A DNA stretch of 61,491 nt from a virus, in the IMG/VR virus record IMGVR_UViG_3300042934_000313, positions 1 to 61,491 of that record. One strand, 5' to 3'. The number at the start of each line of letters is the position of its first letter. Positions within the stretch are counted from its first letter, which is position 1. The notes under the pieces were generated by a model that made no database searches, was not told where the DNA came from, and saw only the letters and a program-made list of their open reading frames with translations. The translations under genes and the position numbers were made by a program. Shown here piece by piece: positions 7,188-47,395 of this stretch.

Positions 7188-7260
7188 ATCGGACGCTCCG
7201 GGAAAAGCGGGCTGGTCTCCAAAACCGGCTGACGGCGGGGTTCGACTCCTCGGTCCGGTG
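7188..7260 (+). tRNA. tRNA-Trp (anticodon CCA)
   Basis: A 73-nt cloverleaf folded by hand. The acceptor stem pairs 7188-7194 (ATCGGAC) with 7253-7259 (GTCCGGT) with one wobble. The anticodon stem CTGGT/ACCGG closes the loop CTCCAAA, placing CCA at the anticodon. The T arm has CGGGG-TTCGACT-CCTCG. The D arm is short and GC-rich and the variable loop is about seven bases, slightly long. CCA is not encoded in full. It lies between head genes and just before a strong terminator. Confidence 0.85.
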
Positions 7261-7268
7261 CAGACAGG

Positions 7269-41711: not shown

Positions 41712-42134
41712 TCAGAACGGAGTGTCGTCGCCTGCGGCCGGGAAGAACCCGTCCTGAGCAGGAGCCGGAGCCGCGCCGCCCTTCGTGTACGAGGCGAACG
41801 TGGTCGACATGCCGACCTCATCGACGATCAGATCGGTCGCCTTCTTCGCGTTGCCCTCGGCGTCCTGGTACGTGCGGGACTTGAAGGAACCGGTCAGGAT
41901 GACCCGACTGCCCTTCGTGGCGGATGCCGCGAAGTTCTCTGCGGGCTTGCCCCACAGGGTGCAGTTCGTGAAGATGGGCTCGCCGTCTTCGTACTCCTTC
42001 GTGTCCTTGTTGAAGGACCGAGGGGTCGAAGCCACGGAGAACGAGGCGACTGCCTGTCCGCTCTGCGTGTACCGAACCTCAGGATCACGAGTCAGGTTGC
42101 CGACGATGGTCAACTGAGTGGTGAACTGTGCCAT
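41712..42134 (-). CDS. ssb: Single-stranded DNA-binding protein
   Basis: A 140-residue SSB: OB-fold motifs TIVGNLTRDPEVRYTQSGQA, FTNCTLWGKPAENFA and GSRVILTGSFKSRTYQD, and the acidic C-terminal tip DDTPF. It coats single strands in replication and recombination. ATG 42134 is two bases after palindrome site 15; the promoter at 42181-42209 lies about 45 bases upstream. Confidence 0.93.
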   Translation of the reverse strand: MAQFTTQLTIVGNLTRDPEVRYTQSGQAVASFSVASTPRSFNKDTKEYEDGEPIFTNCTLWGKPAENFAASATKGSRVILTGSFKSRTYQDAEGNAKKATDLIVDEVGMSTTFASYTKGGAAPAPAQDGFFPAAGDDTPF

Positions 42135-42136
42135 TG

Positions 42137-42151
42137 GAAAGTCCAACTTTC
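42137..42151. repeat. Palindrome site 15 (centre C)
   Basis: GAAAGTC-C-AACTTTC, one arm mismatch, two bases upstream of the SSB start codon and about 25 bases after the predicted transcription start. Confidence 0.82.
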
Positions 42152-42180
42152 TGGCCTTGGTGGTGTTGCGTTATACCTCC

Positions 42181-42209
42181 ATTCTACTAGTTCTGTGGGA
42201 CGAAATCAA
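42181..42209 (-). promoter_or_regulatory. Sigma70-like promoter for the SSB/recombination operon
   Basis: Leftward: -35 TTGATT (42204-42209), 17-bp spacer, -10 TAGAAT (42181-42186). Serves ssb, resolvase, Rad52-like and Cas4-like genes. Confidence 0.72.
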
Positions 42210-42215
42210 ATTGGA

Positions 42216-42497
42216 TCAGGGGCCGAACGTCTTCACGATGCTGATGAAGAGGTAGTAGACCCATGCGCTCCAGAAGAACCCCATGCCGACGAAGTACCAC
42301 CTCCGCGCCTTCTTCGCCGACGCGATGTGACGCTCCAGGTCTGCGGCCAGCGAATCGAACATGCGGTTCAGGTCTGGCGGTAGGTCCATGCTCATCACGT
42401 AGTGGTGCCCATCCTCGTCGCTGTGACCATACGGCCTGGTGCACGTCGAACCGGCAGGTCCGGGGTGCTCGCACCGGATGATGTCGCTCTCGCTCAC
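42216..42497 (-). CDS. Membrane protein with CH-rich N terminus
   Basis: A 93-residue protein. The N terminus has CEHPGPAGSTCTRPYGHSDEDGHHY, likely a zinc site also found in actinophage proteins (Cys-His-Cys-His). A C-terminal TM helix follows (WYFVGMGFFWSAWVYYLFIS). Function unknown. Confidence 0.62.
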   Translation of the reverse strand: MSESDIIRCEHPGPAGSTCTRPYGHSDEDGHHYVMSMDLPPDLNRMFDSLAADLERHIASAKKARRWYFVGMGFFWSAWVYYLFISIVKTFGP

Positions 42498-43611: not shown

Positions 43612-43868
43612 CACTCCTCGATTCCTCCGCGCGTGACGCACGGCTCGCTGGCTCCGACCGGCTCCCATTCGCCGATCATCACCACTCTCTCCACGACATA
43701 GGCGGGCTCGGGGAACCCGTGTTGCTTCGCCCTCTTGTTCACGAATCGGGCGACGCTCTCTGCCTCCTCTCTCGTGTCGCGCTTGCGGGTCTCCCATATG
43801 CGACCCTCCGGCTCGGCCGGATTCATGCTCACCGGATACCGCACCGCGTACTCGATCACCTGCTTCAC
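43611..43868 (-). CDS. Hypothetical 85-residue protein
   Basis: Alpha-beta protein (IEYAVRYPVSMNPAEPEGRIW, REEAESVARFVNKRAKQHG, AYVVERVVMIGEWEPV). This strand-helix-strand design with a sensor-like REEAE helix occurs in small actinophage proteins. Coupled to neighbours. Confidence 0.58.
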   Translation of the reverse strand: MKQVIEYAVRYPVSMNPAEPEGRIWETRKRDTREEAESVARFVNKRAKQHGFPEPAYVVERVVMIGEWEPVGASEPCVTRGGIEE

Positions 43869-44023
43869 CAGAGCACCACCCTCTCTTGGTCCTCGACTCC
43901 GAGGTCGGCACCCATGACCTCGAAGTCGTACTCGTCGTCGCCGGTGAGCCCAGGGTTCAGGGCCACGAGGACGAACCCGTCGTACTCACTCAGAGCGGCG
44001 ATCAGTTCCCGCACTGTCATCAT
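43865..44023 (-). CDS. Hypothetical 52-residue protein
   Basis: ATG 44023 (second ATG 44020) follows GGAGG, which itself follows palindrome site 16 directly. Product MTVRELIAALSEYDGFVLVA and an acidic C-terminal half is a one-domain alpha-beta protein common in phages (VRELIxxL opening). Confidence 0.62.
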   Translation of the reverse strand: MMTVRELIAALSEYDGFVLVALNPGLTGDDEYDFEVMGADLGVEDQERVVLW

Positions 44024-44156
44024 CACTGCCTCCAGAAAGTGGGACTTTCGCGTGCTCGTCGCAGAGCGCACAGTCGCCCTGCTTGTGGACGCCCTGCCCC
44101 TTCGCGATGTCCTGCCGGTGCACCCGGTCCAGGAACTCGCGGTATCCCTCAGTCAT
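43986..44156 (-). CDS. Possible 56-residue protein with CxxC
   Basis: Fills the gap between 44023 and 44149: ATG 44156 overlaps the upstream stop and the frame runs through palindrome site 16 (AKVPLS) before TGA at 43986. MTEGYREFLDRVHRQDI then CALCDEH could bind zinc. No clear ribosome site; overlap of 38 bp with the next gene. Moderate support only. Confidence 0.42.
   Translation of the reverse strand: MTEGYREFLDRVHRQDIAKGQGVHKQGDCALCDEHAKVPLSGGSDDDSAGTDRRSE
44035..44049. repeat. Palindrome site 16 (centre G)
   Basis: GAAAGTG-G-GACTTTC, one arm mismatch; in the leftward direction it runs straight into GGAGG of the next gene. Confidence 0.8.
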
Positions 44157-44352
44157 TGAAGGGGGCGATCGGGATGCCGAGCGTCTTGCTGACGTACTTC
44201 AACTGCTCCTCCGCGACCTCCCGGTCCGAGTACGTGCCGTCGAGGCGAAGGATGATTTCGTATCCGCCCTCGCTCTGCCCGAGTCCGAGCATGGTCATGT
44301 CCTCGCGGTTCTTGATGTACTCGTCGAGCGTCATCTTCTTGCTTCGTGCCAT
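44149..44352 (-). CDS. Hypothetical 67-residue protein
   Basis: Helical N terminus (KKMTLDEYIKNREDMTM), then a strand (EIILRLDGTYSDREVAEEQLK). First gene after the repeat region 44365-44507. ATG 44352 follows GAGGAGCC. No family. Confidence 0.58.
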   Translation of the reverse strand: MARSKKMTLDEYIKNREDMTMLGLGQSEGGYEIILRLDGTYSDREVAEEQLKYVSKTLGIPIAPFND

Positions 44353-44385
44353 GGCTCCTCCTCGGTTTGTGACAGGTCTGCTCTA

Positions 44386-44403
44386 TACATGAAACAACGT
44401 CAC
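44386..44403. repeat. Left arm of 18-bp inverted repeat
   Basis: TACATGAAACAACGTCAC; perfect reverse complement at 44470-44487, separated by 66 bp rich in TGTGAC repeats. Confidence 0.9.
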
Positions 44404-44469
44404 TGTGTCACAGGTTGTGACGTTGTGACACAAGTTGCGTACTCAGAGAAGGCCCTAGGTTGTGACGTT

Positions 44470-44487
44470 GTGACGTTGTTTCATGTA
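44470..44487. repeat. Right arm of 18-bp inverted repeat
   Basis: GTGACGTTGTTTCATGTA; partner of 44386-44403. Overlaps tandem GTTGTGAC copies. Confidence 0.9.
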
Positions 44488-44506
44488 AAGGGGTGACGTG
44501 TCACAA

Positions 44507-45643
44507 CTACGGCGTCGGCTTCAACTTCATGGACTGATACCAGCCCCGCTCGGGCGCATCGAGGAGCCCGGACTTGGCCATGCGAGAGACGGTCTGACGG
44601 ACGACATCCTTCCTCTGCTCGGGGAACTCCTGGTAGATGTGGTTCAGCGACACCGCCCCCTGCTGGGCGTCTACCCACTCCTTGATAGCGCCCTTCAACC
44701 AGCCCTCTCTGCGGTCCTCAGTGCCCGATGCGAGCACGTCGCCGACCGTCCTGGTACTTGCCCCCAGCCACTCGATTCTCGGGACGCTACCGACCTCTCC
44801 GCTGTCGTGCTCGTGGTCGTACGAGTGGACGCGGTACGTGTAGTTCTTCCCGTTCCTGGCGTAGTTCCCCTTCGTGTTGCCGAACGTCACGTCGGTGTAC
44901 TCGACGTTCGGATCGGGCTCGTCCATGGCGAACAGCAGGGTGCCGCGCGTGGCATCCACCCACGCCGCTGATCCCGTGACCGCCGTCCTCGCGTTGCTCA
45001 CCGACTTGTTGATATGAGCGATGCCGATGATCGTGATGTTCTTCCGCTGGGCCAACTGGTTCAGCGGGTCGATGAGTTCGCGGACATCGACGTTGGAGTT
45101 CGGGTCCCGGCCCGCCGCCATGGCTGACAGGAGCGGGTCGATGATGACCAACTTCGCGTTGACCTCCTCGATCTTCTCTTCCAGCAGGGCCAGGTCCTCG
45201 GGGAACTTCGGCATCGTGATCCCGTTCATCGACTTCATGGCGATGCCGAAGATGTGGAACCGCGTGGTGTCTACGCCATTCGCCTGCGCCCTCGGAAGCA
45301 CCACGTCCTCGATGCCGTCCTCGTGGCTGACATAGAGCACGTCGCCCGGCTCGTTGCCGAGCGTCTGCATCTCGCCGCGCGTGACCTTGCCCGCGAACCA
45401 GATCGAGAACGTCGACTTGCTGACGCCGCCCATCCCGGCGAAGATGACGGCCGCGCCCATCGGGATCAGCCCATCCCAGAGCCACGCCATTTTCCTGGAC
45501 CGGAAGTTGGCGAGCGTCTGGACCACGCCCTGCTTCGCGGGTACGGCATCCTCCAGCGCCGACTCGTAGATGCCAACGTTGTCGTCGTGCGTCTTGTGGC
45601 TGACCGTCTCGTAGATGTTCGGCCACTCACTGCTCTCGGTCAC
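44507..45643 (-). CDS. RepA/DnaB-like replicative ATPase
   Basis: A 378-residue RecA-fold ATPase. Walker A GMGGVSKS at 70-77, Walker B LVIIDPLL at 165-172, and a motif near GIAHINKS and GNTKGN in the region of sensor and Arg finger residues. The C-terminal 70 residues form a winged helix (INSERTED after WLKGAIKEWVDAQQ: VVRQTVSRMAKSGLLD). This matches RepA-type hexameric helicases/AAA_25. With the adjacent repeats it probably starts or drives phage DNA replication. Confidence 0.82.
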   Translation of the reverse strand: MTESSEWPNIYETVSHKTHDDNVGIYESALEDAVPAKQGVVQTLANFRSRKMAWLWDGLIPMGAAVIFAGMGGVSKSTFSIWFAGKVTRGEMQTLGNEPGDVLYVSHEDGIEDVVLPRAQANGVDTTRFHIFGIAMKSMNGITMPKFPEDLALLEEKIEEVNAKLVIIDPLLSAMAAGRDPNSNVDVRELIDPLNQLAQRKNITIIGIAHINKSVSNARTAVTGSAAWVDATRGTLLFAMDEPDPNVEYTDVTFGNTKGNYARNGKNYTYRVHSYDHEHDSGEVGSVPRIEWLGASTRTVGDVLASGTEDRREGWLKGAIKEWVDAQQGAVSLNHIYQEFPEQRKDVVRQTVSRMAKSGLLDAPERGWYQSMKLKPTP

Positions 45644-45972
45644 AGTTTCCCCGCTCTGATATTCGCTACGGTTGGGACGAAAAGTCCCACTTTCACAGCC
45701 ACGTCCACGTCATCCATGCCCTCGGCTATGAGGGCTCGGGCTTCATCGAATCGCCGTTGCTCCTCGGCATCCAGTTCAGCCCAGCGCTTGCGGCGTTCCT
45801 CGTTCGCCTCCTGCCCGTCGATGATCGAGTTGACCATCTTGACCTCGGGCCACTCCGAGCGCGGGTTGTTGGCGCGGAAGTACCAGAAGTCGGCGAGCCG
45901 CTGGAGGGCATCGACTTCATCGTCACGCGATGCACGGCCTGCCGCGTAGCCCGAGTCATACTCGGCGGTCAC
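45640..45972 (-). CDS. Hypothetical protein with C-terminal HTH
   Basis: GTG start at 45972 overlaps TGA of a possible 16-codon leader ORF and lacks a ribosome site, suggesting coupling. The product is helical; the last 35 residues (RALIAEGMDDVDVAVKVGLFV and TVANIRAGK) resemble a small helix-turn-helix. Palindrome site 17 encodes VKVGLFV in that motif. Overlaps the helicase start. Confidence 0.6.
   Translation of the reverse strand: MTAEYDSGYAAGRASRDDEVDALQRLADFWYFRANNPRSEWPEVKMVNSIIDGQEANEERRKRWAELDAEEQRRFDEARALIAEGMDDVDVAVKVGLFVPTVANIRAGKL
45680..45694. repeat. Palindrome site 17 (centre C), inside CDS
   Basis: AAAAGTC-C-CACTTTC, one arm mismatch, about 40 bp before the helicase start. 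Confidence 0.8.
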
Positions 45973-46027
45973 TGGCGGGGAAACCAGATGTTGGTGTGCA
46001 CAGAACTAATTCCTCCCATATGTAGTA

Positions 46028-46064
46028 AGGCGTTCTGTGTACACTGGGGTACGACGGAACGCCT
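46028..46064. repeat. Imperfect inverted repeat in helicase leader
   Basis: AGGCGTTCTGTGTAC pairs with GTACGACGGAACGCCT across a 6-nt loop, one bulge and one mismatch. Could be RNA hairpin or operator. Confidence 0.7.
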
Positions 46065-46096
46065 AGGTTTGACGGCCTGGCTCCTGATCTTAGATG

Positions 46097-46131
46097 TGGC
46101 CCCCAGGGTGAGCAACTCCCCTGGGGGCCAC
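46097..46131 (-). terminator. Hairpin terminator after ParB-like gene
   Basis: GGCCCCCAGGG and CCCCTGGGGGCC form an 11-12 bp stem around a short loop, directly after the stop at 46138 in the leftward direction. No T run. Confidence 0.65.
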
Positions 46132-46137
46132 TCCAGT

Positions 46138-47022
46138 TCAGTGCGGTTCCGGGTACTTCTCGGGGTGCGCACCGCCCACCTTGAAGCGGAGCAGGTTGAT
46201 CGTCTCGCCGTCACGGTAGGCGTTCCACGCCTTGATCGTGATAGCGATGATCACGTCGGCACGCATCTTGTCGCGCGTGCCGGGGAGCAACGCCTCGCGC
46301 CGAAGCAACTCGCGAAGGGCGTAGATCGGATTGCCCGACTCCAACCCCTGCCCGTCGACGAGCCGGTCCCAGAAGAACTCGGCGTCATCGGTGTCGATCA
46401 TGCTGAACAGCCAGTAGCACAGGCCGAACGACTGACGACTGCCCGCTCCGAGCGCGTTCGTCACGCGGTACGAGTAGCGGTTGGACGCAACGATGTCGTC
46501 CTTGTTCTTGTCGTAGAAGTGGACGAGCGCGTCGTTCGAGATGTACTCGTTCCGCAGGTTGTTGCCGCGGAACCCTCGGACCCACCGGACCATGATCGTC
46601 GCCACGCTGGCCACGTTGTTCACGTCGGTCAGCGCCGGGTCGTGAATCTTGAGCACGTCGCCACGGTTGCGCATCTTGCCGGTGTCGAGCGTGGTCATCG
46701 CCTCATCCGGCACGCCCCACACGACGAGGAACGTCTGGGCCAGACCGGTATTGATCACCGCCCGGAGGCGATGCTGGCCGTCGATCAGGTGGCCGTGCGT
46801 GTTGAACTTGATCGGCGATCCGTCCGTATGCCAGCGCCCCTCCTCCATCGCCCGCATGAGCGTCGTGAGGTTGGTCGCGCTGACGTTCCGGTTCGCCACC
46901 ATCGTGTCGAGCCACTCGCGTGCGATGTCGGGCGTGACCTCGACGATCGCCGTCGTGATCTGGACAGCGGCCGGGGCTTCTGCCTCGACCGCTGTCTCTT
47001 CCTTCGTGGTTGTTCCTGCCAC
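46138..47022 (-). CDS. ParB-like nuclease-domain protein
   Basis: A 294-residue protein; GTG 47022 is chosen for its AAGGAGA eight bases upstream. Residues 25-95 contain THGHLIDGQHRLRAVINTG, the conserved GQHRLxA motif of ParB/Srx-fold proteins. The rest is helical. In phages such proteins can be nucleases or DNA-modification/partition accessory proteins. No partner ParA is seen, so partition is unlikely. Confidence 0.72.
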   Translation of the reverse strand: MAGTTTKEETAVEAEAPAAVQITTAIVEVTPDIAREWLDTMVANRNVSATNLTTLMRAMEEGRWHTDGSPIKFNTHGHLIDGQHRLRAVINTGLAQTFLVVWGVPDEAMTTLDTGKMRNRGDVLKIHDPALTDVNNVASVATIMVRWVRGFRGNNLRNEYISNDALVHFYDKNKDDIVASNRYSYRVTNALGAGSRQSFGLCYWLFSMIDTDDAEFFWDRLVDGQGLESGNPIYALRELLRREALLPGTRDKMRADVIIAITIKAWNAYRDGETINLLRFKVGGAHPEKYPEPH

Positions 47023-47023
47023 T

Positions 47024-47395
47024 TCAATCTCCTTCAATGAGGGAACTGATGTCGTCGGGGACGACGACGGGGACCATCTCTGCCTTGCCAGGGATGTTGC
47101 GTGCGGTCTCCAGCAGTACCGCGGATGCCGCGCCCTCGGCCATGGTGTGCGCCAGCGCGTGATCCTCGATGTGGGCGAACGTGTCGTGCGCCATGTGGTC
47201 ACTGAGAATCTTGTGCGCCACGACCACGAGGGTCTGCGCCGCCACCGTGGGCGGGACGTTGTGGACGTGCGAGTGGATCACTGCCTGGCCGGGGTGAAGT
47301 TCACCATCGGCGTCGACCGTGACATCGAACTCGACCTTGACCAGCACTTCGTGGTCGTCATCGCCGGAACCACAGCGATCCTCTTCGTCCATCAT
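47024..47395 (-). CDS. His-rich hypothetical protein, 123 residues
   Basis: ATG 47395 (or 47392) follows GGAGG, which abuts palindrome site 18. Beta-rich acidic N-terminal part (EVLVKVEFDVTVDADGEL), then a His-rich helix region (HKILSDHMAHDTFAHIEDHALAH) that could bind metal. Function unknown. Confidence 0.58.
   Translation of the reverse strand: MMDEEDRCGSGDDDHEVLVKVEFDVTVDADGELHPGQAVIHSHVHNVPPTVAAQTLVVVAHKILSDHMAHDTFAHIEDHALAHTMAEGAASAVLLETARNIPGKAEMVPVVVPDDISSLIEGD

Follow-up and report, generated by a model that had tools for sequence, protein, structure and literature searches.

A candidate iteron-type replication origin at the 3' end of a RecA-type helicase gene in a virus related to Microbacterium phages

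Does a dense cluster of short repeats immediately behind the gene of a putative replicative ATPase mark the replication origin of a phage, or does it serve another purpose such as gene control, partition or packaging? The question is raised by a viral DNA of 61,491 nucleotides (IMG/VR record IMGVR_UViG_3300042934_000313), the whole of which was analysed and is termed "the window" here. The window (61.5 kb) is related to Squashvirus and Gillianvirus, two genera of Microbacterium phages of 62 kb. The features of the locus are compiled in Table 1. As outlined below, the repeat array is probably the replication origin of the phage or the main initiator-binding part of it.

Table 1. Features of the candidate origin locus (positions in the window)
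Feature	Position	Strand	Remarks
RepA-like RecA-type ATPase (AAA_25), candidate initiator helicase	44507..45643	-	378 aa
C-terminal winged helix, candidate iteron reader	44510..44713	-	residues ~311-378; predicted
Predicted recognition helix	44573..44611	-	residues 345-357, with R349 and Q350
67-aa ORF of unknown function	44149..44352	-	downstream of array
Candidate iteron array/replication origin	44353..44506	none	fills 154-bp intergenic gap; GC 0.494
Iteron core GTGAC	44369..44373	+	motif scan
Iteron core GTGAC	44399..44403	-	motif scan
Iteron core GTGAC	44407..44411	-	8 bp from 44399 core
Iteron core GTGAC	44417..44421	+	motif scan
Iteron core GTGAC	44425..44429	+	8 bp from 44417 core
Iteron core GTGAC	44462..44466	+	motif scan
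Iteron core GTGAC	44470..44474	+	8 bp from 44462 core
Iteron core GTGAC without leading T	44493..44497	+	aligned L159 position has no iteron
Iteron core GTGAC	44500..44504	-	adjoins ATPase stop codon
18-bp perfect inverted repeat, left arm	44386..44403	none
18-bp perfect inverted repeat, right arm	44470..44487	none

The array fills the space between two genes on the minus strand. The stop codon of the ATPase gene occupies 44507-44509 and the next gene starts at 44352, which bears out an initial sequence-only reading that had placed the cluster directly after a RepA/DnaB-like gene. Counted on both strands, TGTGAC/GTCACA hexamers occur exactly seven times within 44365-44507, where about seven in 143 bp had been reported, and this density lies beyond that of simulated sequence. 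When the whole window was simulated 60 times with a second-order Markov model, no 143-bp segment had more than three copies of TGTGAC (0/60), and the best 6-mer of any kind reached six copies once and seven copies never. The array contains nine GTGAC/GTCAC cores in total, compared with four at the second densest spot of the window. The 18-bp perfect inverted repeat was likewise found as described, and it sits within an imperfect inverted repeat (44367-44412/44461-44506; 46 nt, 83% complementary). Rather than one uniform tandem array, the sites form direct pairs with a spacing of 8 bp, and such pairs occur in either orientation. The GC content of the array contrasts with 0.642 for the window, and equally low values are found in 0.15% of 154-bp windows. 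The array is one of the two lowest-GC spots; of the non-overlapping spots a single one, near 42111, has less GC, and the lowest-GC 154-bp stretch of the window is found there (42111-42264; 0.48, slightly below the array).

Several potential indicators were discarded. TGTGAC is depleted elsewhere in the window (30 copies versus 43.9 expected), and this was set aside as a sign of a specific binder, because the array-less phage Phinky has only four TGTGAC in 50 kb. A CRP-type operator has the form TGTGA-N6-TCACA and was rejected, since in the closest inward pair of the array (44493, 44500) GTGA and TCAC are separated by four bases, not six. The GC-skew analysis suggested along with the sequence-only reading revealed no sign change at 44.4 kb, and the array of the related phage Hyperion is not accompanied by a clear switch either. 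GC skew was rejected as an origin marker, being uninformative at both arrays.

The ATPase belongs to the AAA_25 family (PF13481; E 9.5e-29) and also matches phage primase/helicase families. In structure comparison its model folds like RecA and the RSF1010 RepA helicase (1olo, 1nlf), and neither profile nor structure comparison yielded a D5 or VapE match. The protein is 33-37% identical, over 87-92% of its length, to the annotated DNA primase/helicase of Squashvirus and Gillianvirus Microbacterium phages, with which it shares the RecA-type ATPase and the winged helix, but not an N-terminal zinc-finger/Toprim-like part. In the alignment, relatives such as L159, Hyperion and others carry this extra N-terminal part in the same ORF; judged from its motifs, we take it to be a zinc finger plus a Toprim primase. 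A search across the window with the N-terminus of L159 or Hyperion gave no convincing match (best E 0.25).

The C-terminal domain was modelled by AlphaFold2, also on its own, as helices 311-325, 333-339 and 345-357 plus a hairpin at 361-371. By fold comparison only, it matches winged-helix folds at Z about 10; the match list is led by RPA32C/Rpa2 and Z-alpha, and the archaeal MCM C-terminus (2m45) scores Z 9.5. P4 alpha and SaPI Rep are absent among the best 50 matches listed, a result that excludes neither as a structural relative.

Other features were recorded in the surroundings. The stretch 45640-46137 was noted with regard to the missing N-terminal primase-like part of the ATPase. Upstream of the ATPase region, 46138-47202 encode a 354-residue ORF assigned to phrog_5931, a family of unknown function, for which a weak ParB-like match was also obtained, and a single tRNA-Trp gene is predicted in the left part of the window (7188-7261). 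The 67-aa ORF downstream of the array has a counterpart in L159, where the ORF in the equivalent position is homologous to it in its C-terminal part.

Phage records, IMG/VR, bacterial genomes and a set of 398 genomes belonging to a single family supplied the relatives of the ATPase. An IMG/VR search with the window protein alone gave no close relatives, and an alignment query retrieved 11. For each locus, trimmed to a common frame around the stop codon of the ATPase gene, the survey located, with the motif left unspecified, the strongest cluster of a 6-mer that occurs on both strands, and clusters at most 350 bp from the stop codon were scored as positive. Forty-five loci were counted, the window included, after exclusion of L164 and L167 (identical to the phages L002 and L004), L166 (gene cut by the contig end) and L185-L190 (same places as L170-L175). 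The top cluster lies near the stop codon in 32 of these 45 loci, compared with 7.9 expected, and clusters do not accumulate at offsets other than the 3' end of the gene. Three of the positives (L168, L182 and L199) count on only three copies each. With near-duplicates removed, 25/33 loci are positive (binomial P about 4e-13, a value that overstates independence). Among the first 30 loci, left untrimmed, 18 were positive with the two-strand condition and 13 without it (4.5 expected), and CAG-type repeats ranked first in several of them. The top cluster lies elsewhere in 13/45 loci, including four Mycobacterium Kratiovirus phages, the Gordonia phage Lauer, Phinky and Judebell. An unannotated gap of 560-570 bp follows the primase gene in Phinky (L005, 5141-5699) and Judebell (L006, 5153-5725); it holds a GC-rich 12-bp perfect inverted repeat and no iterons.

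In Hyperion, Fransoyer, Fizzles and other relatives, the array is found inside the 3' coding part of the ATPase gene, in a linker after the winged helix. The Hyperion-type coding array consists of 9-bp units, three in one orientation and three in the opposite one. All seven cores are kept at near-identical spacing in Hyperion and Fizzles, although the two proteins are only 60% identical at the coding array versus 86% elsewhere. The retention of core spacing despite a diverged protein points to selection on the DNA. Fourfold synonymous sites in coding arrays are not consistently more conserved, the changed fraction being 0.38, 0.14 and 0.33 in the arrays versus 0.35, 0.41 and 0.36 elsewhere.

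The spelling of the repeat varies by lineage. The core is GTGAC in the window, Hyperion, Fizzles and Gillianvirus, GTAAC in L159, L160, L175, L196 and L200, and a mixture of ATGAC and GTGAC in L162, L163 and Fransoyer; other relatives use unrelated words (such as AGAACC, CTCTTC, CCTTCG, TGGCAA, AGGTGG, ATAGAT, ATTTCC). L159, the nearest relative of the window ATPase (72% protein identity), is alignable with the window through the gap. All seven aligned iterons differ between the two by one and the same G-to-A change (GTGAC to GTAAC); of the remaining two of the nine window sites, one is opposite GCCAC and one falls in an alignment gap.

This variation was compared with the predicted recognition helix. 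Where residue 350 is Q or A (10 loci), arrays are GTGAC or ATGAC and never GTAAC; where it is M, T or V (seven loci), arrays are GTAAC (five), GCAAC or GATAC and never GTGAC. Stray cores amount to one GTAAC beyond the array in each of L002, L165 and L184 and one ATGAC in L159. ATGAC sites are present where residue 349 is N, A or T rather than R or K, yet L161, with R, has ATGAC at one of four sites. The array-less Phinky and Judebell have G or E at position 349 and an altered helix. That the iteron core tracks residues 349/350 is thus a hypothesis with a good fit, and not a proven code, since the independent lineages are few and the classes were drawn while viewing the data. A wider proposal builds on the same loci: the family of RecA-type primase-helicases of phages and prophages would carry its own origin at the gene end and repeatedly devise a new code for it, residues 349/350 (window numbering) would largely set the core, the sites would switch jointly, and neighbouring lineages would be mutually blind, forming orthogonal origin-helicase pairs. 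Taken as a whole, we regard this proposal as tentative and rather less than even in its chances. Orthogonality of this kind would perhaps protect an origin from use by parasites or by co-infecting phages.

Similar repeats were also sought without reference to the protein. A pair of TGTCACAC units with a 9-bp spacing is present in at least 120 stretches of IMG/VR, versus 24 for the reversed pattern used as a control. An ORF is found within 1 kb in 99 of the 120 listed loci; the longest ORFs include DUF5906 (12), D5_N (9), PriCT_2 (7), AAA_25 (5), VapE (4) and DUF927 (1), and also 14 DNA methylases. In the control set, with an ORF at 22/24 loci, there is one D5/DUF5906 primase (L131) and one DUF3987. 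In L131 the control pattern CACACTGTNCACACTGT (2011-2027) lies near the D5/Toprim primase and is perhaps another iteron spelling. A tandem pair by itself is a weak sign; the criterion that proved useful is at least six copies in 200 bp.

This density is reached in 34 of the 120 listed loci, and in 17 of the 34 the array adjoins a helicase or primase ORF, on the 3' side in 14 cases and on the 5' side in three (L017, L022, L071). Fifteen of the 17 were assigned by phmmer, with the helicase ORF at most 240 bp away, and L062 and L127 by the AAA_25 profile. According to Pfam analysis of 20 proteins, hand-picked by size and nearness, the adjoining helicases comprise VapE, D5_N/DUF5906 with PriCT_2 or Prim-Pol, Toprim with AAA_25, and DUF927 with a Cch helix-turn-helix. 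Because half of the dense arrays adjoin helicases of several classes, TGTGAC-type iterons may serve, or have reached, unrelated helicases. In L057 the nearest helicase is 8.8 kb from the dense array, and in 16/34 loci, some of them short contigs, no helicase was found near it. Phage contigs with dense TGTGAC arrays and no recognised helicase nearby include L013, L034, L052, L067, L076, L120, L117, L040, L059 and L106, several of which resemble the same few phage families. BFK20 and N15 were rejected as carriers of the same array, as the stretches examined contain no TGTGAC cluster.

A plain operator would account for the repeats if a small phage helix-turn-helix repressor bound them and controlled the genes downstream of the ATPase. 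The array does occupy the intergenic gap ahead of the next gene and has at its end what looks, by eye, like a good ribosome-binding site; its half-sites are symmetric as is typical of operators, and in Fransoyer and Phinky the primase gene is followed by helix-turn-helix genes. For the window and L159 an operator is possible, because the downstream ORF is common to both. Yet many relatives hold the array within the ATPase coding sequence, where control of the next gene would not need it; the annotated genes after the array differ in layout among Hyperion, Gillianvirus and the window; and a search of 43800-45000 for promoters of the sigma-70 type found none. Moreover, the repeat tracks the winged helix of the ATPase itself. 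We therefore consider an operator unlikely. An iteron origin, the arrangement envisaged from the sequence at the outset, is favoured over it by position, composition, recurrence beside a helicase and the covariation with the C-terminal winged helix.

Alternatively, the helicase might bind the array in order to regulate its own synthesis or to limit initiation, with replication starting elsewhere. The sequence evidence that suggests binding is the same here as for an origin, and in P4 the crr region beside alpha has type-1 repeats several kb away from the annotated origin, which likewise has type-1 repeats. A position 3' of the gene is, however, ill suited to autorepression, the window harbours a single cluster, and in 50 kb of Hyperion a 6-mer scan lists the array motif at the array only. 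Autoregulation or copy control is thus quite improbable in our view. Clustered repeats also mark partition and packaging sites, but a partition, packaging or recombination site, or a set of functionless repeats, would hardly explain the recurrent position beside a helicase and the concerted base change, and the listed phage loci have no annotated partition or terminase gene; we deem this reading very unlikely.

For the origin, a mechanism may be proposed in which binding by the ATPase, melting, helicase loading and the start of replication are each drawn by analogy. Several copies of the RepA-like ATPase would bind the TGTGAC iterons via the C-terminal winged helix, and the two oppositely oriented iteron blocks would load one helicase per direction. 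The AT-rich stretches of the array would melt first, and the ATPase ring would then unwind the DNA, followed by priming. As the window ATPase lacks a primase part, another protein would have to prime. In this view, a docking site for the helicase seems to be built into the end of its own gene.

The best reading is that the window helicase would work like SaPI Rep, SCCmec Cch2 and P4 alpha. This is a likeness rather than a membership, because its motor is of the AAA_25/RecA type and not D5/SF3 or AAA+; the motor of P4 alpha is D5/SF3-type. P4 alpha is a primase-helicase, and 8-bp repeats about 9 bp apart lie beside its gene, with a core, GGTGAACA, that resembles TGTGACA; P4 has two separate repeat regions, as opposed to a single one in the window, whose ATPase also lacks a primase part. 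In Staphylococcus, SaPI Rep and SCCmec Cch2 are reported to possess a C-terminal DNA-binding domain with which each protein reads short iterons lying immediately behind its own gene, three AAGTG iterons in the case of Cch2 (PMC7581432). The window shares with these two the short-repeat cluster directly 3' of the helicase gene and, as a predicted fold, a C-terminal winged-helix domain, traits that mark the kind of initiator helicase to which P4 alpha is also assigned; it differs from them in the helicase class, in the TGTGAC repeat and in that the array is often intragenic in relatives. The record of the Streptococcus phage Sfi21 annotates an origin (302 bp, non-coding) directly downstream of the primase gene, and a repeat scan revealed GTAACT repeats, spaced by 8 bp, that surround an AT-rich core. 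Sfi21 differs in host, in motor family and in the sequence of the repeat, and its AT-rich core is clear, compared with a milder one in the window.

RSF1010 is a further relative through RepA, the match of the window ATPase model, and there the iterons are bound by RepC. RepA, RepB' and RepC are three separate polypeptides according to PMC4234260, whereas the window helicase itself would read the iterons. The same source describes for ORF904 of the archaeal plasmid pRN1 a C-terminal winged helix and an essential cis element 3' of the gene, an arrangement also proposed for phages such as BIP-1; the pRN1 element differs in being a large stem-loop without iterons, combined with an SF3 motor and an archaeal-type primase (PMC4234260). 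By comparison with these systems, a repeat origin directly after an initiator-helicase gene would be of an already known type, here combined with a RecA-type motor.

In the literature searched, which comprised mostly papers outside subscription, we found neither a mapped origin for these actinobacteriophages nor a description of a TGTGAC iteron. We regard the array as a credible candidate origin that would work in a manner already known, in a family of RecA-type helicases for which the searches likewise gave no published origin. If this reading is right, inspecting the 3' end of the gene for the RepA-like primase-helicase would allow the origin to be predicted in many actinobacteriophages. The family would then provide small matched origin-helicase pairs of differing specificity, as well as a natural data set for the joint change of an initiator and all copies of its site.
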